Origin: Thioclava electrotropha
Lineage (GTDB): Bacteria; Pseudomonadota; Alphaproteobacteria; Rhodobacterales; Rhodobacteraceae
Assembly (NCBI RefSeq): GCF_002085925.2
Contig: NZ_CP053562.1
Location: 3,299,501 to 3,363,500 of the forward strand
DNA: 64,000 nucleotides
Direction of reading: 5' to 3'
Numbering within the stretch: position 1 is the stretch's first letter; the number at the start of each line of letters is the position of its first letter. Positions 43,699-64,000 of this stretch are shown here, one piece after another. The position numbers and the translations under genes are program-made. Under the pieces are notes generated by a model. The model did not search any database and had not been told where the DNA came from. It worked only from the letters and a program-made list of their open reading frames with translations.

Positions 43699-44775
43699 TT
43701 ACGCCTCCTCGTTCTTCTTCTGGGCGCGTTTGAGCGCGGAGACGGCAGCGTGAACTGCCACCGCACCGCCGACGACGGCCGCCGTGGTGCCGCCGACCAC
43801 ATCGGCATTCGCTTCGATCCCGAATTGCTTGATGTTGGTGAGCCGGTCGTAGAAGGAGCCCTGATCCCAGAACCCGTCCTCGGAACAACCAATACAGCCG
43901 TGACCCGACTGGATCGGGAAGCTGACACCCTCGTTCCAGCGCACGGTCGAGCACGCGTTGTAGGTGGTCGGCCCTTTGCAGCCCATCTTGTAGAGGCAAT
44001 AGCCCTTGCGCGCGTTCTCGTCGTCCCAGGTCTCGACGAACTGACCAGCGTCGAAATGCGGACGGCGGTAGCACTTGTCGTGGATACGCTGCGAATAGAA
44101 CATCTGCGGGCGGCCCTGCCGGTCCAGCTCGGGCATCCGGTCGAAGGTCAGCATGTAGGTGATCACGCCGGTCATCACCTCGGCGATGGGCGGGCAGCCC
44201 GGCACCTTGATGATCGGCTTGTCGGTGATGACCTTGTGCACCGGGGTGGCGCGCGTCGGGTTCGGGGCGGCAGCCTGCACGCAGCCATAGGAGGCGCAGG
44301 CGCCCCAGGAGATAATGGCTTTCGCATGCTCGGCAGCGTGGCGGAGTTGGTCCACGAAGGGCTTGCCGCCCACGATGCAGTACATCCCGTCTTCGTTGAG
44401 CGGCGGATTGCCCTCCACGGCGAGGATGTAATTCCCTTTGTACTTGTCGATCGTGTCCTGCAGCGCGGCTTCCGCCTGCGCGCCCGCCGCCGCCATCAGC
44501 GTGTCGTCATAGTCGAGCGAAATCATCGAGAGCACGACATCCTTGGCCAGCGGGTGGGCCGAGCGGATGAAGCTTTCCGAACAACAGGTACATTCGAGCC
44601 CGTGCACCCAGATCACCGGGGTGCGCGGCTTGGTTTCCATCGCATGGGCGATCTTGGGCACATAGGCCGGGCCGAGACCCAGCGCCGCCGCCGTCAGCGA
44701 GCAATATTTCATGAAGCTGCGGCGGGTAATCCCCTGCCGACGCATCACGTCGTAAAAGGTTTCGATCGCAGGCAA
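43699..44775 (-). CDS. hupS: Uptake [NiFe]-hydrogenase small subunit HupS
   Basis: Fe-S electron-transfer subunit (358 aa) exported by Tat; the twin-arginine motif is TRRSFMK at residues 17-23. Cluster ligands lie in [24 protein letters not shown] and [12 protein letters not shown]. The adjacent cysteines in ECTCCSE are characteristic of O2-tolerant group 1d-type enzymes. A C-terminal membrane helix (about 315-345) anchors it. The start is TTG at 44775 ([15 protein letters not shown]) with AGGGAGGGA 5 nt before it; the first in-frame ATG is ten codons inside and has no ribosome-binding site. Confidence 0.95.
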
Positions 44776-44929
44776 AGTGTCCCTCCCTCTGTGATCCCGA
44801 TGACCGGATTCTCCCTCCTCCCGAGGGGAATACGCATGTGTGGTCTCAGGATTGGCAGGTCGGGTCCGCGAACAGAACGAAATAATGACAGGATGTCGCA
44901 GGCGCGAATTCCTGTTTGTTTCCGATATG

Positions 44930-44940
44930 TTGCCAGTCAA
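44930..44940 (-). promoter_or_regulatory. HupR-type binding site TTG-N5-CAA upstream of hupS
   Basis: TTGCCAGTCAA on the plus strand (TTGACTGGCAA on the minus) is a TTG-N5-CAA palindrome, about 155-165 nt upstream of the hupS start. In R. capsulatus HupR binds TTG-N5-CAA at a similar distal position, and IHF bends the DNA between it and the promoter. No clear IHF site was seen here. Confidence 0.6.
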
Positions 44941-45000
44941 AACCCCGGTGCGGCGCGGGGCTGCACTGGTACGTCAGTGACCAGCTTTCCGGGATTCCGG

Positions 45001-47253
45001 TCAGTCTCTTTCCGACTGCGCCGCAGCAATCACCGCCTGCCCCAGCGCCAGCGAGCCGTCATTCGCCGGCAGCGTGCGATGGCTCAGCACCGGCAGGTCG
45101 CCCAGCGCGGCGCAGGTGAGCCGATGCAACAGCGCGTTCTGATACACGCCACCGGTGAGCGCCACGGCTTTCGCGTCTCCGCTTTCGATCAGCGACCGCG
45201 CCCGGCGGGCAAAGCCCTGCGCCAGCGCCGCATGGAACCGCAGCGCGATGGTCTCAGGCGCGACCCCGGCCTCCAGATCGGCGGCGAGCGCCTGAAAAAA
45301 CGGTGCGGTCTTGAGCAAGTCGCCCGCATCCGAGAACGCATAGGCCCCGGCCTCCGCTAACTCCCCGTGGGCCAACGCACGCGACGCCAGCGCCTCGAGC
45401 CGCATCGCGGCCTCGCCCTCATAACTCTGCCGCATCGGGCAAATCCCGAGGCAGGCCGCCACCGCATCGAAGAGCCGCCCCGCCGACGACGACAGCGGCG
45501 CGTTGATCCCCTTCGCCGCCGCCTGACGCGCAAGATCGCGCGGGGCCTCGGGGAACAGGCTATCGGCCAGCCCCTCCAGCCCCGCCGCATCGAGCCGCAC
45601 CAGCGCGTTGCGCCACGGCTCTGCCTGCGCCCGGTCGCCACCGATCAGCGGCGCGGGCTCAAGCCAGCCGCGCCGCGCGAACCCATGATAATCGCCCAGC
45701 AACAACTCGCCGCCCCACACCGTGCCATCGGGGCCCAAGCCGAGCCCATCGAGCACGATCCCCGCGACCTTGCCGCCCTCCAGCGGCCAACCGTTCTCGG
45801 CCATGCAGGCCGCGAGATGCGCGTGGTGATGCTGCACCTCGACCAGCCGCAACCCGTCGCGCGCAGCCCGTTCGGCCCCGTGGCGCGAGGCCCGGAAATC
45901 GGGGTGCAGATCGACCGCCACGACTTCGGGGCGATGATCGAACAGCGCCGCATAATCCGCATCGGCCTGCTCGAACGCCTCCCATGTCAGCGCCTCGTCC
46001 AGCTCGCCCAGATGATGGCCCAACAGCGCCTGCCCGTTCTTGATCAGGCAGATCGCGGCCTTCATCTGCCCGCAATAGCCCACGACCTGCGGCGCGCCCT
46101 CGAACCCTTCGGGCAGCGGCAAGGTGCCCGGCACCTGCCCCCGCGCGCGGCGCAGCACCATCGGCGGATCGGCCCGCACGACGCTGTCATCGAGCCGCCG
46201 CGCAATGTCGCGGTCATGCATCAGGAAGGCATCGACGAAGCCAGCTAGCTTCTCCCGAGCCTCACCGTTTCCGATCACCTGCGGCTCGCCCGAGAGATTG
46301 CCCGAGGTCATCACCAGAGGACCTTTCCCCCATTCGCGCAGCAGCAGATGATGCAGCGGCGTATAGGGCAGCATCCAGCCGAGGCTGTCCTGCCCGGGCG
46401 CCACCGCCTCCGGCAACGCCTCCCCCGCCTTTTGCAACAAAACGATCGGCGCCGCAGGATCGCGCAGCAATTCCACCTCGGCTTCCGAAACTTGGGCATA
46501 GCGGCGGATCGTCTCGATCTCGCCCATCAGCGCGAAGGGCTTGGCGGGTCTGCGCTTGCGCTCCCGCAAAAGCGCCACGGCCTCCGCATTCGTCGCATCG
46601 CAGGCGAGATGAAACCCGCCCAAGCCCTTCACCGCGACGATGCCCGCGCCCTGCAAAACCGCTCCGACCTCTTCGGCAGGACGCTCTTCCCCGTCCACCT
46701 CCAGCCACACCCGCGGCCCGCACTCGGGACAGGCGATCGGCTGCGCGTGAAAACGTCGATCCGCCGGGTTCTCATATTCCGCGCGACAGGCCGGACACAT
46801 CTCGAAGGGTGCCATCGTCGTCTGCGCCCGGTCATAGGGCAGCGCGTGCAGGATCGTGAAACGCGGCCCGCAATGGGTGCAGTTGGTGAAGGCGTAGTGC
46901 CGCCTGCGCCCGTCGCCCCGGATTTCCGCAAGACAGTCCGGGCAGGTCGCCGCATCCGGCGTCACCCGCGTCTCGGCCCCCGCCCCCTGCGAGGCCACGA
47001 TCGCGAACCCCTCAGGCGCGGTGTCGAAGACAAACTCCGACACCTCCACCGCATCGACCCGCGCAAGCGGCGGTGCCTCATCCGAGATCGCCTCGGCCAA
47101 ACCGTCCAAAGCCCCCGCCACCCGGATCAGCACGCCCTCGGGATCGTTGAGCACATGGCCCGAAAGCCCGCGCTCCTGCGCAAGCCGCCAGATGAAGGGA
47201 CGGAACCCCACCCCCTGCACCTGCCCGCGCACCCTGATCTCGAAACCCTGCAT
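45001..47253 (-). CDS. hypF: Carbamoyltransferase HypF
   Basis: A 750-aa maturation enzyme that carbamoylates HypE for cyanide ligand synthesis. Domains in order: acylphosphatase (about 1-90, VRGQVQGVGFRPFIWRLA), two zinc fingers (about 105-185; CPDCLAEIRG, CTHCGPRF, CPACRAEY, CPECGPRVW), YrdC-like (about 200-380, KRRPAKPFALMG) and Kae1-like (about 385-745, VQHHHAHLAACMAENG and ALTGGVYQNALLHRL). It lies between hupV and hupS, as in R. capsulatus. Its 3' end is about 225 bp from hupS. Confidence 0.97.
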   Translation of the reverse strand: MQGFEIRVRGQVQGVGFRPFIWRLAQERGLSGHVLNDPEGVLIRVAGALDGLAEAISDEAPPLARVDAVEVSEFVFDTAPEGFAIVASQGAGAETRVTPDAATCPDCLAEIRGDGRRRHYAFTNCTHCGPRFTILHALPYDRAQTTMAPFEMCPACRAEYENPADRRFHAQPIACPECGPRVWLEVDGEERPAEEVGAVLQGAGIVAVKGLGGFHLACDATNAEAVALLRERKRRPAKPFALMGEIETIRRYAQVSEAEVELLRDPAAPIVLLQKAGEALPEAVAPGQDSLGWMLPYTPLHHLLLREWGKGPLVMTSGNLSGEPQVIGNGEAREKLAGFVDAFLMHDRDIARRLDDSVVRADPPMVLRRARGQVPGTLPLPEGFEGAPQVVGYCGQMKAAICLIKNGQALLGHHLGELDEALTWEAFEQADADYAALFDHRPEVVAVDLHPDFRASRHGAERAARDGLRLVEVQHHHAHLAACMAENGWPLEGGKVAGIVLDGLGLGPDGTVWGGELLLGDYHGFARRGWLEPAPLIGGDRAQAEPWRNALVRLDAAGLEGLADSLFPEAPRDLARQAAAKGINAPLSSSAGRLFDAVAACLGICPMRQSYEGEAAMRLEALASRALAHGELAEAGAYAFSDAGDLLKTAPFFQALAADLEAGVAPETIALRFHAALAQGFARRARSLIESGDAKAVALTGGVYQNALLHRLTCAALGDLPVLSHRTLPANDGSLALGQAVIAAAQSERD

Positions 47254-47259
47254 CTTCCT

Positions 47260-47351
47260 CTTGGCTCAAATATCCCGGGGGTTTGGGGCAGAGCCCCCAT
47301 TTTCGTCGACGTTTCTCGCCCTCCGGCAACGGCAGGGACAGAGCCCCAACT
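47260..47351 (-). repeat. Intergenic repeat copy 2 (between hypF and hupV)
   Basis: Matches copy 1 at 32427-32524 in the same orientation, in the leader of hypF just after hupV. Shared blocks are CTTGGYTCAAATATCCCGGG, GGGGC..GAGCCCC hairpins, GCCCTCCGGCRACGG and the end YTTACTC. Both copies separate consecutive minus-strand genes of the cluster. Confidence 0.7.
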
Positions 47352-47354
47352 TAC

Positions 47355-48782
47355 TCAATGCACCGTGCAGACCATGCAGGGATCGAAACTGCGCACGATA
47401 TGCTGCACCGAGACCGGCGTGGTCTCGCCCTCGCCGACCGGCGCGCCGACCAGCGCAGCCTCCAGCGGTCCCGGCACACCCTCCGCGTCGCGCGGGCTGA
47501 AATTCCACGTCGTCGGCGCGATGATCTGATAGGAGGCGATGCGCCCGTCCTCGATCCGTAGCCAATGCCCCAGCGCGCCGCGCGCGGCCTCGACCAGCCC
47601 CGCACCCTGCCCTGCCTCGGGCAGATCGCCTTGCACCATGAACGCAGCCCCCGGGTCGATGCCTTTCGCAAGCCCCTCCATGAAGGCTTGCGTCCGCGCC
47701 AGTTCCAAGAGCCGCCCTGCAACCCGCGCCAGAACGCCGCCGCCCGCCAGCGCACGCGCCAGCGGATGCCCGTCCACGACCTGCCGCGCGAGCGCGCCGG
47801 TCTCCACCGTCTGACCGTTCAGCCGCGGCGCCTTGCACCAGCTATAGGCGGCGTCGCGCATCGCCTCATCGGGCCGTGTCTCGCCCTGCCAGGGATGGGC
47901 CTGCGCCCCCAGCATCCACGCATGGCTCAGGTCTTCCGTGATCGCGCCGAAATCGACCGCGCCCAAGGACCCGTCCCACAGCCCACGCCCAAAGCCATAG
48001 CCTTCGGCCAGCGGATAGGCTCCGAAGCTCATATACCGGCCCGAGCCGCGACCGAGCCGGTCCAGATCCAGATCGGCCGCGATGCGCAGGAACAGCCCCG
48101 CATCGCCCGCCTCCCACGCCATCAGCTGATCGACGGTTTCGATCGCACAGAAGGCTTCCAGCGACCCGCCGAAAACCACCTCCTCCAGATACCGCCGGAA
48201 AGCGCGCAACGTCGTCTCGATGCGCACCTTGTCGCGCGATCCCGGCGCGCGGGTCACGCCGCCCGGCTGGATTGCGAGCGTATGGGGCCATTTGCCCGCC
48301 ATCAGCCCGAGGATATGCATCAGCTCGGCGCGTGCCGCGACCGCCGCGCGCTGCGCGCCGCCCTCGGCGGGGGTGAAGCGCGACACCGCCCGGTCAAACC
48401 ACGGTTTTCCTGCATACACGGGGCGGATGAAATCGGGCATGAAGAACAGGTTGAAATGGAACAGGTGGTCCGAGACATTCTCGACCGCATGGATCAGCGC
48501 CGCCATACCCGCGCCCTGCGGCGTGGGCTCCAGCCCCATGGCCGCGCCCAGCGCGCGCGCCGCCGCCGCGGACTGGCTGATCGAGCAGATGCCGCAGATC
48601 CGCGGCGTGATCGTCAGCGCATCGCGCGGGTCTTTGCCTTCCAGCATCCGCTCGAACCCGCGATAGAGCGGCGAGTTCACGCGCGCCTCGGCCACCGCCC
48701 CACCGGCGAGATCGAGATGCACTTCCAGATCGCCCTCGACCCGGTTGAACGGGCCCACAACGAGGCGCGGCGTCTCTGTCAT
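47355..48782 (-). CDS. hupV: H2-sensing hydrogenase large subunit HupV
   Basis: Large subunit of the regulatory (group 2b) hydrogenase (475 aa). Ni-Fe ligand motifs are PRICGICSIS and, at the very C-terminus, DPCMVCTVH. The protein ends at that His without a cleavable extension, as known for sensor hydrogenases, so no HupD step is needed. The ATG at 48782 overlaps the hupU stop. With HupU it senses H2 and relieves HupT kinase activity. Confidence 0.96.
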   Translation of the reverse strand: MTETPRLVVGPFNRVEGDLEVHLDLAGGAVAEARVNSPLYRGFERMLEGKDPRDALTITPRICGICSISQSAAAARALGAAMGLEPTPQGAGMAALIHAVENVSDHLFHFNLFFMPDFIRPVYAGKPWFDRAVSRFTPAEGGAQRAAVAARAELMHILGLMAGKWPHTLAIQPGGVTRAPGSRDKVRIETTLRAFRRYLEEVVFGGSLEAFCAIETVDQLMAWEAGDAGLFLRIAADLDLDRLGRGSGRYMSFGAYPLAEGYGFGRGLWDGSLGAVDFGAITEDLSHAWMLGAQAHPWQGETRPDEAMRDAAYSWCKAPRLNGQTVETGALARQVVDGHPLARALAGGGVLARVAGRLLELARTQAFMEGLAKGIDPGAAFMVQGDLPEAGQGAGLVEAARGALGHWLRIEDGRIASYQIIAPTTWNFSPRDAEGVPGPLEAALVGAPVGEGETTPVSVQHIVRSFDPCMVCTVH

Positions 48783-49777
48783 CTGCGTCCTTTCGGCTTG
48801 CGGATCGTCGGCGTCACCTCGACCCGGTCGGCGACCGCGTTCTTCGCGATCCGCTCGGGCGTCGCCGCTTTCGACAGCGAGGCGAGCGCCATGAACCACG
48901 CTTTGGGCATATCGGTCGGAAGGCCCACCGGGATGCCTGCGATCTTCGGCGTCTCGGTGAAGGAATGGCGCGGTTCCTCGAACTCAGGCGCAGTGCAGTT
49001 GATGCAGGGGTATCCGCCCGAGGTGCATGACCCGTCGCCGTTCCACGGCCGGATGTTACAATCGCCCACGGCCTGCGTGCCGATGCAGCCCAAGTTCTCC
49101 ATCATGCAACCGATATCGGACAGCTCCACCGCCGAGGCCTTGTATTCGTAGAACTCGTTTTTCGAGCAACCGTGATGGACGAGGTGCTTGGCGTAGAACA
49201 GCGGCCGCCCGAAAGCGTCGAGGTCTTCCGCCCCGAGCGCGCCTTCATTCAGCAGCAAAAGCGTCTCGGTCACCCAGTCGGGATGGGTCGGGCAGCCTGC
49301 CACGTTGATCACCGGTAGCCCCGAGATCGAGCGGAATTCAACCGGCAGCGCTCCGCCCGGCAGCGCGCCGTCATATTGTACGCCTACTGCATCGGAGGGG
49401 TTGCCGCCCGCCGAGGTCACGCCGCCATAGGTCGCGCAGGTGCCTACCGCGACCACATGGCGGGCTTTCGGCGCGAGGCTCTCCACCCAGTCGAGCATCG
49501 AGCGCCCGGTGCCGGACACCATCTGGAACTTGCCCGTCCCACGCGGCCCGCGGGCGATGGAGCCCTCGACGGCCAGCACGTCCAGCGCGATCTCGCCGCT
49601 CTCGACCGCCTCGAAAATCGCGCGCACCTCCGCCCCGGTCTCGAGGCTGACGGTCGGGTGCCAGAGGAACTCGATCCCCGCCCCGCCCAGCGTGTCGAAG
49701 ACATTCGGGGATTCCGCACAAAGGAGCGACATGGTGCAGCCGCCGCAGCCTGCCGCTTGCAGCCAGAGAACCTTCAT
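48779..49777 (-). CDS. hupU: H2-sensing hydrogenase small subunit HupU
   Basis: Small subunit of the sensor hydrogenase (332 aa). It has no Tat signal, starting directly with MKVLWLQAAGCGGCTMSLL, so it stays in the cytoplasm. Fe-S ligands are visible in VGTCATYGGVTSAGG, HHGCSKNEFYEYK, CMMENLGCIGTQAVGDCN and CINCTAPEFEE. It overlaps hupT and hupV by 4 bp each. Confidence 0.96.
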   Translation of the reverse strand: MKVLWLQAAGCGGCTMSLLCAESPNVFDTLGGAGIEFLWHPTVSLETGAEVRAIFEAVESGEIALDVLAVEGSIARGPRGTGKFQMVSGTGRSMLDWVESLAPKARHVVAVGTCATYGGVTSAGGNPSDAVGVQYDGALPGGALPVEFRSISGLPVINVAGCPTHPDWVTETLLLLNEGALGAEDLDAFGRPLFYAKHLVHHGCSKNEFYEYKASAVELSDIGCMMENLGCIGTQAVGDCNIRPWNGDGSCTSGGYPCINCTAPEFEEPRHSFTETPKIAGIPVGLPTDMPKAWFMALASLSKAATPERIAKNAVADRVEVTPTIRKPKGRR

Positions 49778-51165
49778 TCCGCTCCCTCGCCCAGTTCCAG
49801 ATCGAAGGAGAAACAGGCCCCGCCCAGCGCCGACCCTTTCGGGCAGAGCCGCAGACGCCCACCATGTTCCTCGATGATCTTATGGCTGATCGCGAGGCCC
49901 AGCCCCGTGCCCGCCCCCACCGCCTTGGTGGTGAAGAACGGATCGAAGATCGCCTGCGTCAGCTCCTCGGTCACGCCGGGGCCATTGTCGCCAACCGACA
50001 GCACCCCGCGCCCCTCCATCACGCGCGCGTCGACCTCGATCCGGCCGGTGCCCTCTTCCAGCCCCGAGAGCGCGTCGATCGCATTTTGCACGAGATTCAT
50101 CACGACCTGCTGGATATGCCCCTGCCGACCGCGCACCTGCAGCGTCTCCGCGCCGGTGAAGGCGATCTCGACCCCGGCCTTGGAGCCGCGCTGCACCCAG
50201 TTCGCCGCCACCCGCGCGGTCTCGACCAGATCGAAGACGACCATCTCGCCAGAGCCTTCGGCACTCAGCCTCCGCAGATCCTCGACGATGTCGCGCACCC
50301 GTTCGGCCCCGTCGCGCGCGCCCTCGATGGCCGAACGCAGGTTGCGGATTTCGCGGTCGAGCTTCAGCTCCTCTCGCAGGGCGATCAGCGCCTCGCGATC
50401 CGCTCCGGCCTGCACTTTCTCGAAATAGGCCTCGAACTTGCCCGCATAGCGCTCCAACGCATGGGTGTTCGCGTAGACGAAGGAAATCGGGTTGTTCAGC
50501 TCATGCGCGACGCCAGCAAGCAGACGGCCCAGCGAGGCCAGCTTCTCGTTGCGCACCAGCTGCGCCTGCGTCGATTTCAGTTCTTCGTGGCTGCGCTCCA
50601 GCTCGGAATAGGCTTGGCGCAATTCGCCCAAGGGTCGGCCGGTCAGCACATAGCCCGCGATGCGAGAGCGTTCGTCCATGCGCGGACTGATCGACAGCTC
50701 GAGCGGCGCGGGGCCTTCCGGCCCGCTCAGCGCCGCTTCGATCGTCACCGGTTTGCGGGTATTCGCAGCTTCCGCCAACCCGCGATCCAAGGCCTCCACC
50801 GAGCGCGCGTCGAACATGCCCGCGAGCTTGCGACCGTGCCACGCGCCGGGCGGCTCGCCCGTCAGGCTCGCGACCGAGGCCGAAGTTTCCAGCACCTCGC
50901 CCGAGCGCGAAATCACGATCAGCGCATCCGAAACCGAGGCGAGGATCGACCCGAGGAAAGAGCGCAGATCTTCCAGTTCGTGGTTCTGCTGCTCCAGCCG
51001 CTCCTGATAGTCCACCAGATCGGCATAGGTCCGGTCGACCGCCGAGAGCACATCGAACCAGACGTCTTCGCCCTCCCCCTCATCCGCGCCCGGCGCGTGG
51101 CGCAACAGCCCGGCCAAGGTCGGGTCCAAGGGGTGCTGGCTATCGGGTGCGGACTCGCGCGACAT
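49774..51165 (-). CDS. hupT: HupT sensor histidine kinase
   Basis: Soluble histidine kinase (463 aa) of the H2-sensing pathway. A coiled-coil-prone N-terminal segment (about 35-75, including YQERLEQQNHELEDLRSF) leads to a PAS domain (about 75-190). The HisKA box holds the phospho-His in LLAGVAHELNNPISFVY, and the HATPase domain shows NLVQNAIDAL, VGDNGPGV and GTGLGLAISHKIIEEHGG. In R. capsulatus it phosphorylates HupR, which switches the hup genes off, until HupUV binds H2. The ATG at 51165 is chosen. First gene of hupTUV. Confidence 0.94.
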   Translation of the reverse strand: MSRESAPDSQHPLDPTLAGLLRHAPGADEGEGEDVWFDVLSAVDRTYADLVDYQERLEQQNHELEDLRSFLGSILASVSDALIVISRSGEVLETSASVASLTGEPPGAWHGRKLAGMFDARSVEALDRGLAEAANTRKPVTIEAALSGPEGPAPLELSISPRMDERSRIAGYVLTGRPLGELRQAYSELERSHEELKSTQAQLVRNEKLASLGRLLAGVAHELNNPISFVYANTHALERYAGKFEAYFEKVQAGADREALIALREELKLDREIRNLRSAIEGARDGAERVRDIVEDLRRLSAEGSGEMVVFDLVETARVAANWVQRGSKAGVEIAFTGAETLQVRGRQGHIQQVVMNLVQNAIDALSGLEEGTGRIEVDARVMEGRGVLSVGDNGPGVTEELTQAIFDPFFTTKAVGAGTGLGLAISHKIIEEHGGRLRLCPKGSALGGACFSFDLELGEGAE

Positions 51166-51422
51166 GACACTCTCAAAGCCGGGCGCGACGGGCGCCCATC
51201 CCTTATCGCTAGCCCATTCGGGACGCTCAGTCCATGATCTCGGGCCCCGCACCGAGGGGCGCATTTCGTGTCAAAAGACGCACCATACCCCAAGATGACC
51301 TTCCGTCAGCCCGCGCCTCGCCCTCTTGGCAAGGGCGCGCGCTTTGCCAAAACTACAGCGCGAGCGCAAACAGGCGGGTGACTTGGCGCGTCCGGCGCGG
51401 CGGGAACCCGAGGGAGGACGAG

Positions 51423-52841
51423 ATGCGGGGATGGAAAGCGGTGCTTGCCGGGATCGGCGGGCTTGTCGTGGTGGCGGTGCTCTACGCGGTGATCGTGCCG
51501 CCGGAGCTGCTGCGCGTGGGCGCTGGCTATAGCGCGAAGATCACCTGCTCGGCGGAAGCGCTGCAAGGCCGTGACCCCGACGAAGTTCTCGAAACCGATG
51601 TGCAGGCGCCGGGCAACCCATTGCTGCGCGCCTTCTGGGTCAGCACCGACCGCCGGGCAGGCCGGGTCCGGGCCGCCTTCGCCGGGATCATCGCGCCCAC
51701 CACCGCCGAGGAGCGCGTGGGCCTCGGCTGCGCGACCTACCCCGATGGCAATCTGGCCGACGCCGGCGATCAAAGCGCCCCGCCCGCGCCGGGGCCCAGC
51801 AAAAGCGCCGCCCTCTGGCCCACCGGGTCGAAAACCGACCTGACCGGGCAAGGCCGCTTCGATGCGGTTTTGCGCGACGATGCACTGACCGGGCCGGGGA
51901 TGCGCGCGGTGGTGGTGATCAAGGATGGCAAGCTGGTCGCCGAACGCTACGGCGATGGCTTCGATGCCGCGACGCCGCTTCTGGGCTGGTCGATGACGAA
52001 GACCGTCACTGCGGCCCTTGTCGGCACCGCGATCGAGGCGGGCAAGCTGCGGATGGACCAAAGCGACCTGCTGCCCGAATGGCAGGGCGACGACCGTGCG
52101 AAGATCACCGTCGCGCAGCTGATGTCGATGTCGAGCGGGCTGCGCTTCAACGAGGATTACGGCGACGTCTCTGACGTGACGCGGATGCTCTATCTCGAGC
52201 CGGACATGGCGCAATTCGCAGCCTCGCAGCCGCTCGATCACCCGCCCGGCACCCATTTCAGCTATTCCAGCGGCACCGCCGTGCTGCTGTCACGCATCTG
52301 GCAAAATGCGGTGGGCGACACCTCCACCGCGCTCGCCTGGCCGCGCCGCAAGCTGTTCGATCCGCTCGGGATGAGCTCGGCCACGCTCGAGACCGACGCC
52401 TCCGGGACCTTCGTGGGCAGCTCCTACCTCTACGCCACCGCGCGGGACTGGGCGCGTTTCGGCCAGTTCCTGCTACAGGATGGCAAATGGGATGGTCGGC
52501 AATTGCTGCCCGCCGAATTTGTGCAGCGGATGCATGCACCCGCCCCGACCGACGGAGTCTATGGGCAGGGCATGACATGGCTGGCTGGCCCGAGCGATCA
52601 GCAGAAAGCGGGCGATGATGCGCGGTTCGGGCTGCCCGCCGACACCTATTGGCTCGAGGGGCATGACGGGCAGACCGTCACCGTGATCCCCTCGGCCGAT
52701 ATGGTCGTGGTGCGGATGGGACTGACGCCGTCGGACCTGAACTACCGCCCGCAGAAGCTGGTGGCGGCACTGCTGGACGCGGCGAAGGCCACGGCTCACG
52801 CTTCGTCGAACATCCCTTCGAACAGCGCCGAAGACAGGTAA
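51423..52841 (+). CDS. Serine hydrolase of the class C beta-lactamase/PBP4* type
   Basis: A 472-aa membrane-anchored serine hydrolase. An N-terminal helix (about 5-22, [19 protein letters not shown]) is followed by a linker and a beta-lactamase-fold domain from about residue 150. The active-site Ser/Lys are in WSMTKT (near 190-193), and the Tyr element is FSYSSGTAV (near 281). The C-terminal HGHxxG-type motif appears as [11 protein letters not shown]. The start at 51423 follows GAGGACGAG. Its 3' end overlaps the convergent cysK by 46 bp. The substrate is unknown (peptide, ester or D-amino compound). Confidence 0.85.
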
Positions 52842-53761
52842 CGCTCGCCCGAATCCGGCAGCACGACGACGATGGTCTTGCCCGCGTTCTCCGGTTCGCG
52901 CGCGAGGCGCAAGGCCGCAGCCGCAGCCGCGCCGCAGGAGATCCCGGCCAAGATGCCCTCTTCGCGCGCCAGCCGCCGGGCCGTCTCGATCGCCTCGTCA
53001 TTGCTGACCTGCTCGATCCGGTCCACGAGATCCATGTCGAGCACTTTCGGCACGAAGCCCGCCCCGATGCCCTGGATCTTGTGCGGGCCGGGCTGCAGCG
53101 CCTCGCCCGCGCGGGCCTGCGTGAGAACGGGGCTGGCCTCGGGCTCCACCGCGACCGAGATCACCGGCAGACCCTTTTCCTTTTTCAGATAGCGCGAAAC
53201 GCCAGTGATCGTGCCGCCCGTGCCGACGCCCGCGACGAAGATATCGACCACGCCATCGGTATCCTCGAAGATTTCCGGACCCGTGGTCTTCTCGTGAATC
53301 TCGGGGTTCGCCGGGTTGTTGAACTGCTGCAGCAGCACGTAGCGATCGGGATCGGAGGCCGCGATCTCCTCGGCCTTGGCAATCGCCCCCTTCATGCCCT
53401 GCGCGCCTTCGGTCAGCACGAGCTTCGCGCCATAAGCCAGAAGCAGCTTGCGCCGTTCGATGCTCATCGTGTCGGGCATGGTCAGCGTGATCGGGATGCC
53501 GCGAGACGCGGCGACGAAGGCCAGCGCGATCCCCGTGTTGCCCGAGGTCGGCTCGACGATCTCCTTGCCGGGACCGAGCACGCCGCGTTCCTCGGCATCC
53601 CAGATCATGTTCGCACCGACACGGCATTTCACCGACCACGCCGGGTTGCGCCCCTCGATCTTGGCCAGAACGGTCGCGCCCGCCCCCTCGGTCATGCGGT
53701 TGAGCCGCACCAGCGGCGTGTTTCCGATGCTGAGAGAATTGTCTTCGTAGATCCGTGCCAT
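52796..53761 (-). CDS. cysK: Cysteine synthase A (O-acetylserine sulfhydrylase)
   Basis: PLP enzyme (321 aa) making cysteine from O-acetylserine and sulfide. The PLP lysine is in [14 protein letters not shown], the asparagine loop in [15 protein letters not shown], and the phosphate-binding GTGGT in [17 protein letters not shown]. It ends with [20 protein letters not shown], typical of CysK. The ATG at 53761 has GGGAG about 9 nt upstream. It is monocistronic, 7.5 kb beyond the hydrogenase genes and far from cysDNC. Confidence 0.96.
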
Positions 53762-53827
53762 GCGCGCGCTCCCTTCCTGTCGTTTGCCGCGCCATCAAAG
53801 AGCAACACGCGCGGAAGGGAAAGACGA

Positions 53828-53851
53828 AAGCCTCGCATCGCTGCGAGGCTT
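53828..53851 (-). terminator. Terminator after the lasso-type small gene
   Basis: A perfect 10-bp stem (AAGCCTCGCA / TGCGAGGCTT) with loop TCGC lies 50-73 bp after the stop of the 53901 gene. On the minus strand it is followed by TCGTCTTT. This gives the small gene its own transcript end, separate from cysK. Confidence 0.7.
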
Positions 53852-53900
53852 CCACTTCTTTACCGGGCAACTGGCAGCACCCGGAGCTTTCCGAACGCCG

Positions 53901-54074
53901 TTACGAGAAGGCTAAATCCGGCGGACAGTACGAGCCGTGTCCGTCATAATCGTCATCCTTGTGTCCGCGACCGCGGCCGCCATGCGTCAGATCTTCGAGA
54001 GACCCCAAATGTTTCAATTTGGGCCGCTCATACCGGATGGCGTCATTTTTGCTTCGAGAATTTTCAATCACCAC
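53901..54074 (-). CDS. Putative RiPP precursor with lasso-peptide-type leader
   Basis: A 57-aa product. Residues 15-30 fit the lasso leader recognition pattern Y-x2-P-x-L-x2-LG-x4-LT (YERPKLKHLGSLEDLT). The Thr is at -2 to Gly32; a core starting there has Gly1 and Asp at position 9, the spacing needed for a macrolactam ring. The 26-residue core is rich in Gly, Arg, Asp and His (GGRGRGHKDDDYDGHGSY, then CPPDLAFS). The start is GTG at 54074 (GGGGG 5 nt upstream) or the adjacent GTG at 54071; an in-frame GTG at 54086 is less likely. No lasso B or C gene is in the window. Confidence 0.6.
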   Translation of the reverse strand: MVIENSRSKNDAIRYERPKLKHLGSLEDLTHGGRGRGHKDDDYDGHGSYCPPDLAFS

Positions 54075-54086
54075 ATATACCCCCAC

Positions 54087-54352
54087 GTTTGATTGAATAT
54101 AGAAAGGGTTACACAGCTCTGATGAACCGCTAGCGGTTTTTGCGGCGATTCAATCCGCGGTTGCGCGCGCATTTAAAAGTCACCCGAAAATGCTTAAAAA
54201 ACGCGCATTTACGGGCTGGATTCCTGAATTTATCGAAATTGCGATCGGCGGCGGCTGGCCGAAAACCCCTGCGCAAGACACGAGGGAATCGCCTGACCGT
54301 CAGCTATTCGCGGCGGAACGTTCTGTTTTCACACACTTAATGCGTGTTAAAT
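54087..54352. other. AT-rich intergenic region upstream of the lasso-type gene
   Basis: About 265 bp, visibly lower in GC than the neighbours, between the RiPP-like gene and the glycosyltransferase ending at 54353. On the minus strand a TATATT element lies about 25 bp before the RiPP-like start and could be a -10 box. Short open frames here lack ribosome-binding sites. Confidence 0.5.
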
Positions 54353-55312
54353 TCAGTTACTTACTCTCGGCAAAGTGGCATCTACAGAGGAATGAGCGCG
54401 GCCGACAAAGCGCACGGCATTCCGCTTCAGGATCGCCTTCGGCTGGAAATTTCCCGGCACGCCATTCGCCGCAATCCCCGCCTTCTGGAGCGCCTCGATC
54501 CGTGCCGAACGCGGTATCCGCAGAACCTCGCCAGCCAGAAATGCGTCCTTCGCCTCTGGCGAGGTTCGGCCCCAGATCGCCCGTTGAAGCCGCGTGATTG
54601 ACGCCTTGAGATCAAGCTCGCGACGCAGCCACCCTTTGTCGAGGCCCAGATTGCGAGTGGTCGATGTCTCGTTCTCTGCCCACGCGGCCAGCCGTTCGCG
54701 ACAGACATAGACAGGTTCGGAGATCAGAGCCGTGCGCAGATATTCCTCCAGCGTCGGGATCGTATCGACCTTCACCGCCAGACTGCCCTTCATATTTCGC
54801 GACCAGAACAGCGCACCATTCGACACGCCGATCGATCCGAAGATCGCCAGATGGACCTCTTCGGGCGTGTAAGTGCGCTCGTCATAGACATCATCGAAGA
54901 TGCCCTTGTCGCCGAGATAGGCGTTTGGCGTCCGGCTTTCGTGCTCGATGACCTGGCTCAGCATGCAGAGGTTCACCCCCTGCTGGGTGCAAATCTCGTG
55001 CCCGCGCGCAAGGTAGTCCGGGAAGACCTGGTTATCGTCTTCCAACATGCAGAAGTAATCGGCCTTGTAGGGGTTCTCCTTGAGAAAGCAGTCATCGAGA
55101 TTGCGCGTCATGAATTTCTGCGGGCGGTTCTGCACATAGTGAACCCGCGGATCGCCAATCTCTTCGACCATCGCGCGGCCGCTCGCATCGGGGCAGTCGT
55201 CGCGCACCTCACAGACCCAGTCCTCGAAGGTCTGCGCCTGAAGCGTGCCTATGGCACGCCGCAACAGGTCGGGGCGCCGATAGGTCGGCATACGCACGAG
55301 CGCTAACGGCAT
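54353..55312 (-). CDS. Family 2 glycosyltransferase
   Basis: A 319-aa GT-A fold glycosyltransferase of family 2. The N-terminus VRMPTYRRPDLLRRAIGTL gives the nucleotide-sugar fold, with a DxD-like element in YFCMLEDDNQVFPDY. The C-terminal ~100 residues are helical and not assigned. The ATG at 55312 has GGAGGG upstream; an upstream extension is unlikely. It follows the gene at 55380 by 67 bp and probably forms a two-gene operon with it. The acceptor is unknown; the exo genes nearby suggest surface polysaccharide. Confidence 0.82.
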   Translation of the reverse strand: MPLALVRMPTYRRPDLLRRAIGTLQAQTFEDWVCEVRDDCPDASGRAMVEEIGDPRVHYVQNRPQKFMTRNLDDCFLKENPYKADYFCMLEDDNQVFPDYLARGHEICTQQGVNLCMLSQVIEHESRTPNAYLGDKGIFDDVYDERTYTPEEVHLAIFGSIGVSNGALFWSRNMKGSLAVKVDTIPTLEEYLRTALISEPVYVCRERLAAWAENETSTTRNLGLDKGWLRRELDLKASITRLQRAIWGRTSPEAKDAFLAGEVLRIPRSARIEALQKAGIAANGVPGNFQPKAILKRNAVRFVGRAHSSVDATLPRVSN

Positions 55313-55379
55313 TGGAACACCCTCCTCGTCGAAAAGAGGTTTGACCGACCGCGGCACGCCGATCGTTTACAGTTCGGCA

Positions 55380-59247: not shown

Positions 59248-60224
59248 CCAGTCCGAAGCGCAAAGACAAGATCGGCATTGGCCTGTGTACTTATCGTCGC
59301 GAAGTCGTGCGCGACACCCTCGCCTCGCTTGCCGAAACGCTCCCGCCAGATCTCGATATCTGCGTCATCGTTGCGGATAACGATATTGAACTCTCTTCCG
59401 AAGAGCGGGTTCGTTCGGTGCCGCTTCCCTTCGAACTGCACTATCTGCACGCGCCCGCCCATAACATCTCGATCGCGCGCAATGCGGTTCTCGACGCGGC
59501 CGAGGCGCAAGACTTGGACTGCCTCGCCTTCCTCGATGATGACGAACGCGCCCTGCCCGGCTGGCTCCCTGCTCTGATGGAGGCGCGCAAATCCGAAGAG
59601 AGCGCCGCTGTGATCGGCCCCGTGCGCGCCTACCACAATGACGCGGCCCCCGAGTGGATGCGCGCGGGCCATATCCACGACACCCTCGCCGAGCTTGATA
59701 GCGAAGGGCGCGTGCGTGCGGGCTACACCTGCAACGTCCTGCTCGACCTGAAACACCCCGCCGTCTCTGGCCTGCGGTTCGATCCCGATTTCGGTCGGAG
59801 CGGCGGCGAAGACACGATCTTCTTCGACCAGATCAAGCACCGCGGCGGGACGCTAGCCTACGCCCCGGAGGCCTGGCTGGAAGAGGATGTCCCTGCTGAA
59901 CGCGCGCGGCTTTCGTGGCTTTTGCGGCGGCGTTTCCGCATGGGCCAGACCCATGCCGTTCTGGTCTCGCAGGGCAAAACGTTCGCAGCACGAATGATCG
60001 AACTCGGACGCGCCGGCGCGAAAGCACTCGCCTGTCTCGGACTTTCTCTGGGCCACGTCACCGCCCCCTTGGCGCGCAACCGGAATCTGATGCGCGCGGC
60101 CCTGCATATCGGCGTCGTCTGGCGACTTGCCGGCGGAAGCCGAACGGAAATCTATGGCGGAGCATCTACGGATGCCACGCACAACACAGCCTCAAGGCGC
60201 AACGCGCGAGGAACGACCTCTTGA
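59244..60224 (+). CDS. exoM: ExoM-like family 2 glycosyltransferase
   Basis: A 326-aa family 2 glycosyltransferase like ExoM. Signature segments are KIGIGLCTYRREVVRDTLAS, VIVADNDIELSSEER, NISIARNAVLDAAE and CLAFLDDDERALPGWL (DDD metal site). The C-terminal part has GRSGGEDTIFFDQIKHRG. The start is GTG at 59244, overlapping the exoA stop (GTGA). Together with ExoL and ExoA it probably extends the lipid-linked repeat unit. Confidence 0.85.
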   Translation: MTSPKRKDKIGIGLCTYRREVVRDTLASLAETLPPDLDICVIVADNDIELSSEERVRSVPLPFELHYLHAPAHNISIARNAVLDAAEAQDLDCLAFLDDDERALPGWLPALMEARKSEESAAVIGPVRAYHNDAAPEWMRAGHIHDTLAELDSEGRVRAGYTCNVLLDLKHPAVSGLRFDPDFGRSGGEDTIFFDQIKHRGGTLAYAPEAWLEEDVPAERARLSWLLRRRFRMGQTHAVLVSQGKTFAARMIELGRAGAKALACLGLSLGHVTAPLARNRNLMRAALHIGVVWRLAGGSRTEIYGGASTDATHNTASRRNARGTTS

Positions 60225-62662
60225 GACAGACGCAATTCAAATTCGCAGATACGAGCAACGATCTCGAGCGGCCGATCTCGAAACCGCCCGAAACCGTAAC
60301 GCTGGGCCAGCTCACGCGTATCCTGCGTCGTCGGCGGTGGTCGATCATCGTTCCCGTCGTGATCCTCGGCATCCTCGGGATCATCTATCTGGCGACCACG
60401 CCGCGCAGTTACCTTGCCAATTCACTGCTGCTGCTGGATGCGAATATCAGCCGGTCGATCGAACAGCTCGGGGCTTCGGAGAGCAACAATCTCAGCGAGT
60501 CCGCCCTTGAAGATGCCCGGCTGATCATCCGCTCCGACCGGATCTCGCAATCGGTCGTCAAAGAGCTCGATCTTCTCGACAATCCCTCCTTCACGTCGCC
60601 GCCGAGCTCGCTGTTTTCCCGGCTGATCGGCGGTGCGATCAATACGATCCGTACACCGATCAACTGGCTGCGCTCGAAACCCGAACCGAGCGGCACAACC
60701 ACTCTGACGCCCGAACAGATCACCGCCGCGCGGCAAGACCTCGCCGCGCGCGCCCTGCAGGCGCGCATCGATGTCGGGCGTGTCGGCAGAAGCTCCGTGA
60801 TCTCGATCAGCTACGAGTCCTACGATCCGGCCATGAGCGCCTCGATCGTGAATTCGCTCGCCGAGGGCTACATCGCCGATGTCCTCAACGCGAATTTCGA
60901 AGCGACCGAGCGAACGACGAACTGGATGCAGGACCGGCTGACGGAGCTGCAAAATCAGGCGCAACAAGCCGCGCTCGATGCGGAGACCTTCCGGGCCGAG
61001 CATGGGCTCGTCTCCTCGCGCGGCGTTTCGATGACAAAGGATTCCGTCGTCCAGCTCAATGCCGAGATGGCCAACGCGGTCAGCGATGTGGCCCGCGCTC
61101 GGGCGCGCGTCGATACCTACAACCAGATCATTGCCGGTGGGGTCCAAGCCCTCGTCGATGGCGGCTCCACCGGGGTCGGCGGCGGAAGCGACCCGGCCCT
61201 GCAGCAGGCCCGCGATACGCTCACCGACTCCCTGGCGATGCTCAATCAGATCAAGACCAATTTCGGCGAAGATCACCCGCAGTATAAGGTCGTCCAACGG
61301 CAGGTTCAGGCCGCTGCGGAACGCCTGTTCACCCTTCTCAAACAAGGGAGCGCGCAGGCGAAAAGCGATCTTTCAAGCGCCGAAGCGAAGGTCGATGCGC
61401 TCAAGAACAGCCTCGGTCTCGCGATCGACAGCGACACGAGCTCCGGCACCGTCGAGGTCCAGTACAGCGCGCTGCAGCAACGTGCCGACACGCTCTCGAC
61501 GCTGTACCAGGCCTTCCTGACGAAGTTTCAGGAGATCGAGCAACAGAAATCCTTCCCCGTCTCGAACGTGCGGATCCTGACCAAGGCGGACGTGCCGCGC
61601 AACCCGGTTGGCCCGAGCACGAAGCGCGCGCTTGCGATCTCGATCGTGCTCGGTTTGATCATCGGGATGATTATCACGGCCTGGCAGGAATGGCGGGAGC
61701 GGTTCCTGCGCACCTCGGATGACGTTCAGGACGAAACCGGTGGACCGTTCCTCGGCTATCTGCCGGAGTTCGAAACGTCGGCGCAGTCGGAACCGGTCCG
61801 ATCGATCACAAGCACCGCCGTGTTCCAGAACCTGCGGGACGGGCTTGCCGAGAATATCTCGAAACCGAGAAACGGGTCGCATTCGACCAGTGAAAGCGCC
61901 ATCTACGCCGTGCGCCATCCCAGATCTTTCTTCGCGGAAACCTTGCGCAGCGTGCGGCTCGCCGCAGAAATCCGCGCGCCGGTCGAGACCGGGGCAATCG
62001 TTCTGGGGGTCACCTCCGCACGTCCCGAGGAAGGCAAATCGACGGTGTCTCTCAATCTGGCTGCCGTGCTCAACATGTCCAATGCACGGGTGCTCTTGAT
62101 CGATAGCGACATCCGGCGCCCCGGGCTTAGCCAGCGCCTCGGCTTCCGCCATGGCGACGGGCTTGTCGAAGTGCTCGCCGGCCGCGCGCCTTGGCGCAAC
62201 CTGGTGCGTGAAGTGGAAGGCACCGGCGTGCATATCCTGCCCTGCATTCCGCCGAACGGCTTCACCCACAGCGCCGAGCTGTTGTCCTCACGCGGCATGC
62301 GCGAGTTGATCGCCGAGGTGCGCAGCGAATTCGATTTCGTGATCATCGATCTCGCCCCGCTCGGCGCGATCGTCGATGCGCGTGCCATGATCCCGAACCT
62401 CGATACCGTGCTCCTCGTGGCAAGCTGGGGCAAGACGCCGAAGTTGATGCTGAACCGCATCCTGTCGGCCAATGCAGCGTTGCGCGAGCGCCTCTTGGGA
62501 ACGGTGCTGAATCGCGTGGATATGGATGACCTGCGTGACTTCGTCGACGTCTCCAGCACCGAGGCCTATTTCGAAGATTACAACGGATATTTCGGGGATC
62601 CGGGAAAAGGCTGGGACAAGCCCGAGATGCGCGGCACAAATACCAACACACGCAACAATTGA
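60221..62662 (+). CDS. exoP: ExoP/Wzc-type polysaccharide co-polymerase with tyrosine kinase
   Basis: An 813-aa bacterial tyrosine kinase/co-polymerase that sets exopolysaccharide chain length. A first membrane helix (about 42-62), a long periplasmic coiled-coil region (about 200-430) and a second helix (about 470-490) form the Wzz part. The cytoplasmic kinase has Walker A TSARPEEGKSTVSLN (near 600), Walker A' VLLIDSDIRRPGL and Walker B FVIIDLAPLG. A C-terminal tyrosine cluster (AYFEDYNGYFGD) is the autophosphorylation tail. The start is TTG at 60221, overlapping the exoM stop (TTGA), with GAGGA upstream. Confidence 0.92.
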   Translation: MRQTQFKFADTSNDLERPISKPPETVTLGQLTRILRRRRWSIIVPVVILGILGIIYLATTPRSYLANSLLLLDANISRSIEQLGASESNNLSESALEDARLIIRSDRISQSVVKELDLLDNPSFTSPPSSLFSRLIGGAINTIRTPINWLRSKPEPSGTTTLTPEQITAARQDLAARALQARIDVGRVGRSSVISISYESYDPAMSASIVNSLAEGYIADVLNANFEATERTTNWMQDRLTELQNQAQQAALDAETFRAEHGLVSSRGVSMTKDSVVQLNAEMANAVSDVARARARVDTYNQIIAGGVQALVDGGSTGVGGGSDPALQQARDTLTDSLAMLNQIKTNFGEDHPQYKVVQRQVQAAAERLFTLLKQGSAQAKSDLSSAEAKVDALKNSLGLAIDSDTSSGTVEVQYSALQQRADTLSTLYQAFLTKFQEIEQQKSFPVSNVRILTKADVPRNPVGPSTKRALAISIVLGLIIGMIITAWQEWRERFLRTSDDVQDETGGPFLGYLPEFETSAQSEPVRSITSTAVFQNLRDGLAENISKPRNGSHSTSESAIYAVRHPRSFFAETLRSVRLAAEIRAPVETGAIVLGVTSARPEEGKSTVSLNLAAVLNMSNARVLLIDSDIRRPGLSQRLGFRHGDGLVEVLAGRAPWRNLVREVEGTGVHILPCIPPNGFTHSAELLSSRGMRELIAEVRSEFDFVIIDLAPLGAIVDARAMIPNLDTVLLVASWGKTPKLMLNRILSANAALRERLLGTVLNRVDMDDLRDFVDVSSTEAYFEDYNGYFGDPGKGWDKPEMRGTNTNTRNN

Positions 62663-63039: not shown

Positions 63040-64000
63040 TCACACCGCGCGGCTCGTGCTGCGTTCGGCGTCACGCATCTTCATGAACCTTGCGTCGGGC
63101 TTGGTGCGCAGGATGGCAGGTGCACCGCTCTCGACGATCCGACCCTCTTCCAACGCGAAAACCATATCCGCGAATTCGACCATCGAATAACGATGCGCGA
63201 TCGTGAGGATAGCCATCGGGGTTTCGATCTTCGCAAGGTTCGCCACGATACGGTTCTGACTTTGCCAGTCGAGCGCACTCGTCGCCTCGTCGAGGATCAG
63301 CAGCTCGGGCTTTCTCAGCAAAGCGCGTGCCAGCGCGATCCGCTGACGTTCTCCCCCTGACAACAGCACGCCACGCTCCCCCAGCAGAGTGTCGAGCTGC
63401 GCGGGAAGCGAGAAGACGAAGTCCGCGGACGCGACGCGGAGGGCCGCCTCCATGTCCTGCTGATCCGCCTCCGGCGCGCCAACTTGCAGAGCTTCGCGCA
63501 CCGTCATCGGTGGCAGATAGGTGTCCTGCGTGACGTATGAAATCCGGTGCCGCCAGCTCCGAATATCCATCGGATCTAGGTCTTGACCGTCGATGAGGAT
63601 CTTGCCGGTCTCGGGCCGAATGAGGCCGCAAATCAGATCCGCGATCGTCGATTTTCCAGAACCCGACGGCCCGATCAGCGCCGTCACCTCCCCCGCGCGA
63701 ACGGAAAGGCTGACATCCTCCAACGCACGCGGCAGGTCTTCGCCGTGACGATAGGATACATTCTCCAGCCGGATTTCGTGCCATGGCGCGCGCGTCGCGA
63801 TCGGCAATCCCGCCGCGACATCGCGCTGGCGGATCATCTCACCCTGGACATTTCGAATGTGCTGCCAACCCGGTAAATTCACCAGGAACATCTGCGCCTG
63901 CTGCTGAAGCGTCATGAACCGCGGGGCCAGCCGCATCATCACGAGCAGCAAAACGACAATCTCGGAAATCGCGAGGCCGAGCTGCACGAGCGACAGGTAG
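63040..64000 (-). CDS. ABC exporter (fused membrane/ATPase type), N-terminus beyond window
   Basis: The C-terminal ~320 residues of a type IV ABC exporter half-transporter; the frame is open through position 64000. The end of the membrane domain (IVVLLLVMMRLAPRFMTLQQ) is followed by the ATPase: Walker [15 protein letters not shown]-loop YVTQDTYLP, signature LLSGGERQRIALARALL, Walker B LLILDEATSALD and the switch His in TIAHRYSMVE. The spacing and QALPQLDT-like segment (LPAQLDTLLGERGVLLSGG) resemble exporters found beside RiPP/lasso genes and also polysaccharide exporters. The substrate is unknown. Confidence 0.85.
   Translation of the reverse strand, partial: YLSLVQLGLAISEIVVLLLVMMRLAPRFMTLQQQAQMFLVNLPGWQHIRNVQGEMIRQRDVAAGLPIATRAPWHEIRLENVSYRHGEDLPRALEDVSLSVRAGEVTALIGPSGSGKSTIADLICGLIRPETGKILIDGQDLDPMDIRSWRHRISYVTQDTYLPPMTVREALQVGAPEADQQDMEAALRVASADFVFSLPAQLDTLLGERGVLLSGGERQRIALARALLRKPELLILDEATSALDWQSQNRIVANLAKIETPMAILTIAHRYSMVEFADMVFALEEGRIVESGAPAILRTKPDARFMKMRDAERSTSRAV

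Follow-up and report, generated by a model that had tools for sequence, protein, structure and literature searches.

The closest described systems are the phospho-lasso pathways (SyanA/SyanK, paeninodin with PadeK, and pseudomycoidin with PsmK and PsmN), in which B1, B2 and cyclase (C) proteins are accompanied by an HPr-kinase-like protein (K) and an ABC exporter, and in which the last residue of the precursors is Ser, reported to be where phosphorylation occurs. HPr-kinase homologues have been reported to phosphorylate a terminal Ser in both Firmicutes and Proteobacteria (PMC8498205, PMC9266682). The paeninodin-type kinases are described as scarcely selective for the peptide beyond its C-terminal Ser (PMC8498205), and the proteobacterial kinases as acting on the C-terminal Ser too (PMC9266682), but not all such kinases target the last Ser, since LppK acts on Ser3 (PMC13381572). 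BsfK also acts on Ser3, in the Bsf system, where B1 is used for leader removal as well as by the kinase (PMC10368454); B1 reportedly binds to the leader rather than to the core (PMC5067487). Further decoration has been described for pseudomycoidin, where PsmN adds hexoses to the phosphoserine, with a host glycosyltransferase not excluded in that study (PMC9266682).

A second group, the linear polyphosphorylated peptides (LPPs), is described as cyclase-less, HprK-phosphorylated, often encoded in capsular loci and restricted to Bacillota (PMC13381572). A lasso cluster may contain several precursor genes whose leader motifs are identical (PMC13381572), and the enzyme that makes the citrulline of citrulassin is encoded elsewhere in the genome (PMC12971885). 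Word matching in the titles and abstract openings of open-licence papers returned no announcement of an unclustered, orphan or second lasso precursor or of a cyclase-less lasso system.

The Thioclava genome analysed here (G000) has the phospho-lasso set of B1, B2, C, K and an ABC exporter (D) in one operon together with a precursor gene (A1), and a separate gene, A2, for which we propose the role of a second precursor. Both A1 and A2 end in -FS. The window, by which we mean the whole stretch of 64,000 nt that was analysed (G000:C1:3299501-3363500), contains A2 and the 3' part of D, and the rest of the operon follows past its right edge. Positions are given in window coordinates, extended past the edge where required, and equal the position in the 20-kb locus L013 plus 51999 (Table 1).

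Table 1. Features of the A2 gene, its neighbourhood and the lasso operon
Feature	Position	Strand	Position in L013	Remarks
Cysteine synthase A (cysK), downstream neighbour of A2	52796..53761	minus		TIGR01139, 463.2 bits
Terminator-like hairpin 3' of A2	53824..53855	minus		Found by scan; stretch nearly invariant in three genomes
A2, putative second lasso-type precursor gene	53901..54074	minus		57 aa from GTG 54074
A2 core GGRGRGHKDDDYDGHGSYCPPDLAFS	53904..53981	minus		Asp9 (53957-53955) and -FS align with A1-type cores; C-terminal Ser at 53906-53904
A2 leader peptide, 31 aa	53982..54074	minus		YxxPxL (54032-54015) and LEDLTH; aligned with A1-type precursors
GGGGG, Shine-Dalgarno-like	54080..54084	minus		5 nt before GTG 54074; putative, from upstream sequences
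Perfect palindrome AACCGCTAGCGGTT, candidate operator	54125..54138	.		About 50 nt upstream of A2; intact in three genomes
Glycosyltransferase family 2, first gene of polysaccharide island	54353..55357	minus		PF00535, 30.8 bits
Wzz/chain-length protein with kinase-like domain	59915-62662			In polysaccharide island
D, ABC exporter	63040-64863	minus	12864-11041	3' part (63040..64000) inside the window
K, HPr-kinase-like	64860-65930	minus	13931-12861
C, cyclase	65843-67732	minus	to 13844	Start codon chosen by eye
B2	67729-68175	minus	16176-15730
B1/PqqD	68177-68449	minus	16450-16178
A1 precursor	68537-68671	minus	16672-16538

The A2 gene and the lasso operon at opposite ends of a polysaccharide island

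An earlier note, made from the letters of the window, had called A2 an orphan gene with a lasso-type leader of the pattern Y-x2-P-x-L-x2-LG-x4-LT and Thr at -2. The leader is as it was described: it ends in ...YERPKLKHLGSLEDLTH, which reads Y-ER-P-K-L-KH-LG-SLED-LT-H, and relative to the predicted cleavage site (...LEDLTH before G) the Thr stands at -2, as it does in A1 of the operon. The whole product consists of the 31-aa leader VVIENSRSKNDAIRYERPKLKHLGSLEDLTH and the 26-aa core GGRGRGHKDDDYDGHGSYCPPDLAFS. A recheck of the boundaries confirmed that this core starts with Gly, carries Asp at position 9 and is 26 residues long, and Gly1 and Asp9 are present in three of three A2 orthologues. Five Asp, two His and one Cys are found among the 26 residues, and the core ends in -DLAFS. 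The non-ATG start also held, GTG 54074 giving the 57 aa counted before; other possible starts are GTG 54071 and GTG 54086, the latter being the first GTG of the mechanically listed open reading frame (54086..53901, minus strand, 61 aa). Like A2 with its GGGGG run, A1 of the operon has GGGGGTAT ahead of its start.

A model of lasso leaders, the kind of search that the note had suggested, does match A2, though below its cut-off: NF033521 (NCBIfam lasso_leader_L3) scored 15.9-16.1 bits against a cut-off of 19. Among NF033534 (rhodolasso), NF033528 (lasso_cyano) and NF033521, A2 matched NF033521 only (16.1 of the required 19 bits). When the 14 precursors of alignment A3 were searched at E<=0.1, NF033528 matched 13, NF033521 12 and NF033534 8. 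A1 itself scored 16.6 bits against NF033521, below the cut-off of 19, and where scores are listed the G612, Epibacterium and G004 precursors are below cut-off too, while the distal precursor of G066 reaches 19.8.

A2 lies between cysK and a family-2 glycosyltransferase gene, at the left margin of a polysaccharide island that contains glycosyltransferase genes and separates it from the lasso operon at the other end. A terminator of its own, which the note had assigned to the gene, has a candidate in the hairpin at 53855-53824, but the evidence for it is weak because the scan found two such sites where 1.1 were expected in shuffles. The palindrome AACCGCTAGCGGTT has a single exact copy in the window and is the sole match in the 20-kb locus L013 when up to 2 mismatches are allowed. 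An Rfam scan of the window at gathering thresholds gave no match. Pfam matches at 43699-51264 also revealed a group of hydrogenase genes. They encode a NiFe hydrogenase small subunit, HypF, a pair of large and small subunits and a histidine kinase with a PAS domain, and the group resembles part of an uptake hydrogenase together with a set that we take to be hydrogen-sensing.

The operon, in the order A1-B1-B2-C-K-D, spans 63040-68671 on the minus strand, the same strand as A2. The note's statement that no cyclase, B1 or B2 lies near the gene is true within the window, but C, B2 and B1 are reached 1.8, 3.7 and 4.2 kb past its edge, where the search beyond that edge found them; the earlier reader saw no machinery because the window cuts D. 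PF13471 (B2) and PF00733 (cyclase) match the same contig 1.9-4.1 kb past the right edge, which rules out an orphan gene whose genome lacks the lasso machinery. D lies 9.0 kb, C 11.8 kb and A1 14.5 kb away from A2, so that the B2 and asparagine-synthetase-like cyclase genes, at 11.8-14.1 kb, are not adjacent to it. The note would have given up a lasso origin had the genome held no B1, B2 or C homologues and had orthologues not conserved the leader; the operon is present and the leader is kept. B2 scored 57.1 bits (cut-off 33), PqqD 64.1 (23.4) and Asn_synthase 148.7 (21), and K remained below its cut-offs, with 23.4 of 33.3 bits for PF07475 and 38.1 of 200 for TIGR04352. Beyond A1, whose sequence is MKTYTRPQLQKHGKLEDLTHGAGSTTIADQVLPPGTDIAGLTFS, there follow a divergent NTP_transf_5 gene (PF14907, 90.6 bits) and a GT2 gene. 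This gene order, in which GT2 and NTP_transf_5 diverge from B1-B2-C-K-D, is conserved in loci of Thioclava, Mesorhizobium, Salipiger and one further genus (L013:11041-19105, L045, L046, L081, L092-L098, L100 and L101).

Relation of A2 to A1-type precursors

A1 and A2 have in common YxRPxL, a leader Gly, LEDLTHG, Asp at core position 9 and a C-terminal FS. We searched all six-frame open reading frames of 25 aa or more in the whole window (1,197) with a profile of 12 A1-type precursors, which consisted of A1 of G000 and 11 precursors from other genomes and excluded A2. The single match was A2 with an E-value of 4.6e-8, and the same 1,197 frames reversed gave 0 matches. This match, the orthologues within the genus and the frame that is open in three genomes rule out that A2 is a spurious open reading frame. 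Among copies of A2 with shuffled cores, 664 of 4,000 scored as high as A2 on the A1 profile; the family signal thus lies in the leader and two end features of the core, and the view that the A2 core is a diverged A1 core over its full length is unsupported. The same shuffle test on the G066 distal precursor gave 236 of 4,000.

Asp9 together with Phe, Tyr or Leu at position 12 was found in A2 (Tyr12) and in 19 of 19 hand-chosen A1-type cores, a count that describes the chosen set alone. In choosing this set, near-identical Mesorhizobium cores were cut to two, and precursors from other phyla or with clearly different cores were left out (including L102, L110, L111, L112, L113, L116, L118, L119, L121 and L135), as were those of G423 and of G439, whose core has D9 and F12 but ends in -ITLS. 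In shuffle tests of the A2 core that were picked after the sequence had been seen, Asp or Glu occurred at position 9 in 20.5% of shuffled cores, an acid at 9 with Phe, Tyr, Leu or Trp at 12 in 3.2%, and the ending [DEGH]-hydrophobic-[TA]-FS in 0 of 4,000 free shuffles and in 0.2% of those with FS fixed.

The polar, Cys-containing core of A2 is unusual, and the note's remark that it differs from most lasso cores agrees with the presence of Cys in one of the 19 chosen A1-type cores. A polar core was also found in G423, in a locus with C, B1 and B2, where the sole open reading frame with the leader motif (L192:9186-9413) lies between C and B1/B2 and has a candidate core, GGSGRRSEPNGGPNSNDPSRRP, that is rich in Gly, Arg and Asn with Glu8; a polar core is therefore not foreign to lasso loci.

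Among 394 family genomes, 55 had a match at E<=0.5, of which the nine at E<=1e-7 were kept and the other 46 were dropped, with six of their loci inspected; a second distant match was present in two of the nine, G000 and G066. Across the order, 10 of 390 genomes matched at E<=0.005 (G463 with 3.4e-7), with a second match again in G000 and G066 only, and across the class (385 genomes) there were, besides G000, three genomes with a weak match at E<=0.01, and one of these matches (L226) has a lasso-type leader and a Gly-rich core. A query with A2 alone in 295 family genomes gave four matches at E<=0.01, namely G000, the G236 precursor, and L048 and L049, the last two of which were dropped, and plasmid records held no A2 relative at E<=0.1. 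We also checked 21 genomes, representing 21 of at least 80 loci with a cyclase relative. A match at E<=0.05 was found in 18, and a second full-length precursor in one, Epibacterium ulvae (L235 around 9168). The two precursors of this species are 38 kb apart; the second has the core of an ordinary lasso peptide (Asp9, -ITFS), and no lasso genes were seen in 19 kb of its locus. Leader-only extra matches in 7 of the 21 were other precursor kinds or uncertain and were not counted as A2. As a separate observation, five Mesorhizobium loci (L214, L216, L221, L222 and L223) contain clustered short open reading frames of the form MKKTYEKPxLxxKGxLSxxTA... with short cores, which are another family with lasso-type leaders.

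Processing in trans and competing readings

We consider A2 to be best explained as a second, unclustered phospho-lasso precursor whose 26-residue core is made into a lasso by the operon machinery, and we give this reading as a whole a probability of about 55%. One part of it, that A2 is a real second precursor and a substrate of the operon machinery, we hold to be highly probable, and we lean somewhat towards its also being lassoed. By its leader, Thr at -2, Gly1, Asp9 and C-terminal Ser, and with the machinery in the genome, A2 would work like a phospho-lasso precursor. B1 would bind the YERPKL leader and K would phosphorylate the C-terminal Ser; B2 is predicted to cut after ...LEDLTH, with His(-1) as the last leader residue. 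C would most likely link Gly1 with Asp9, turning the 26-residue core into a lasso, and D would export the product. Everything after translation, including processing in trans, phosphorylation and ring closure, is what we infer from the gene and its genome. Since A2 displays what B1, B2 and K presumably require, processing in trans would require no new enzyme, and ring closure by C is our first guess because Asp9 of A2 sits in the A1 register. With a leader akin to that of A1 and the machinery at hand, A2 can be explained by less than the new RiPP class or stand-alone metal-binding peptide that the note had considered. Against this reading speak the polar core with its Cys and its lack of an overall likeness to A1 cores, the G066 distal core that lacks a ring acid, the kinases that act on Ser3, codon changes without a clear signal of selection, and the NF033521 cut-off that A2 missed.

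A linear phosphopeptide is a possible product because the core of the G066 distal precursor cannot form a ring and the G612 locus lacks a detected cyclase. On this alternative, which we think possible but unlikely, A2 would be matured in trans by B1/B2 and K without the cyclase, giving a linear peptide that is phosphorylated at its C terminus and may carry a sugar cap, comparable in Alphaproteobacteria to the LPPs of Bacillota. The G066 distal precursor (E 6.0e-7, L080:6996-7172) lies 65 kb from the first precursor of that genome, with no lasso genes found near it in 16 kb and a neighbour that reads, by eye, as enolase. Its leader is AYEAPVLRVHGTLEEMTHG, where the A1 leader of G066 is AYEAPVLRVHGTLEAMTHG, and its Gly/Trp/His/Arg-rich core, GRGHGGFGGGWGWGGGRPHRPHDPCDYTFS, keeps THG and -FS but has no Asp or Glu at positions 7-9 or anywhere before position 23, so that it cannot close a lasso ring of the usual 7-9 residues. 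The G612 locus (L191:7554-9653) has the order A-B1-B2-K with a GT2-like gene nearby, and its 38-aa precursor, MKKIYEAPALRAHGKVESVTKFYWSWTKIAPWCDPSYS, ends in ...PWCDPSYS. No cyclase was found in 18 kb of this locus or, at E<=1e-5, in the genome, which is rated 99% complete, and the locus is possibly a linear LPP counterpart that uses B2. LPP clusters offer a described parallel, being reported without a cyclase and with an RRE, an HprK-like kinase, an NTP transferase and an exporter in capsular loci (PMC13381572). The transfer of these cases to A2 is weakened by the G612 precursor itself, which has Lys(-1) and Phe1 in place of the THG junction, in a locus with no exporter match of 80 bits or more, and by Thioclava, where in each of the three A2 genomes Asp9 and Tyr12 stand in the register of A1 and a cyclase is present.

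It is also conceivable, although we would bet against it, that phospho-lasso machines of Alphaproteobacteria have a dual use. Their operon precursor would then become a lasso while scattered precursors (examples would be A2, the distal one of G066 and the G612 locus without a cyclase) would yield linear, C-terminally phosphorylated Gly/His/Cys-rich peptides tied to exopolysaccharide. Sugar caps would be added via the neighbouring NTP transferase and glycosyltransferases, and the whole would correspond to the LPPs of Bacillota but have arisen independently and use B2.

We regard as improbable that A2 is a remnant or decoy, with a duplicated leader and a decayed core, little expressed or merely competing for B1. 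The non-ATG start, the remote position and a core without overall profile similarity to A1 would fit this view, as would the absence of A2 from the operon-bearing G003 and G004. Within the genus, close A2 orthologues are present in 3 of 16 genomes (97% identical in the two others) and B2 in 5 of 16, the three all being within the five, which speaks for a substrate of the operon machinery; because the three A2 genomes are close relatives, this co-occurrence amounts to little more than one event. A single-sequence search with A2 gave weak matches (E 0.05-1) in eight further genus genomes, all of which were dropped except that of G004, which is its A1. The codon changes, with three synonymous and one amino-acid change between G000 and each of the other two genomes and zero and two between those two, and the very conserved spacer to cysK (0-0.7% divergent) show no clear sign of purifying selection on the core. 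Against a remnant speak a frame that is open and free of indels in all three genomes, a protein-identical leader and an intact -DLAFS end, and a divergence of 1.1-2.2% for the A2 open reading frame against 4.3-6.6% for the two flanking genes. Finally, composition alone suggests a secreted Gly/His/Asp/Cys peptide that binds metal, is independent of the operon and resembles a lasso precursor in its leader by chance. This is very improbable given the leader match by a profile that excluded A2, a LEDLTHG identical to that of A1 in the same genome, and genus orthologues solely in B2-bearing genomes.

Lasso precursors are usually looked for beside the operon. A search of that kind could overlook distal ones, which here lie 14 to 65 kb from the first precursor, when their core is non-standard, and the product repertoire would then be under-counted. 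Should processing in trans proceed without the cyclase, one machinery would make both lasso peptides and linear phosphopeptides, which would bear on the origin of LPP-like families and on why such pathways sit in polysaccharide islands.

Comparison with described systems

The Thioclava locus resembles pseudomycoidin in that an NTP transferase gene adjoins the operon, as PsmN belongs to the pseudomycoidin cluster. It resembles the LPP loci of Bacillota in its YxxP leader, RRE, HprK-like kinase, NTP transferase, ABC exporter and polysaccharide locus (PMC13381572), and we count as a further likeness that LPP clusters are reported with one to three precursors of variable C termini (PMC13381572). 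The differences are that LPP loci are described with a SipW-like peptidase and that the LPP studied is phosphorylated on Ser3 (PMC13381572), whereas Thioclava has B2 and a cyclase and its last Ser is the expected site. The LPP leader motif, given as YxxPxVLxHQxIxFETxxS (PMC13381572), is absent from A2, whose leader reads YERPKLKHLGSLEDLTH; for this reason, and because B2 and a cyclase are encoded in the genome, we did not class A2 as an LPP.

What is shared with multi-precursor lasso clusters is that one machinery serves several precursors that agree in the leader motif and differ in the core. Caulosegnins are reportedly an example of such a cluster. There, however, the extra precursors lie inside the cluster and A2 lies at a distance. 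A2 likewise departs from the phospho-lasso systems in its polar Gly/Arg/Asp/His core with Cys and in its position, with 9.0 kb between it and the nearest part of the operon and 14.5 kb between it and A1, and it is this second precursor far from the operon that makes the Thioclava system unusual.
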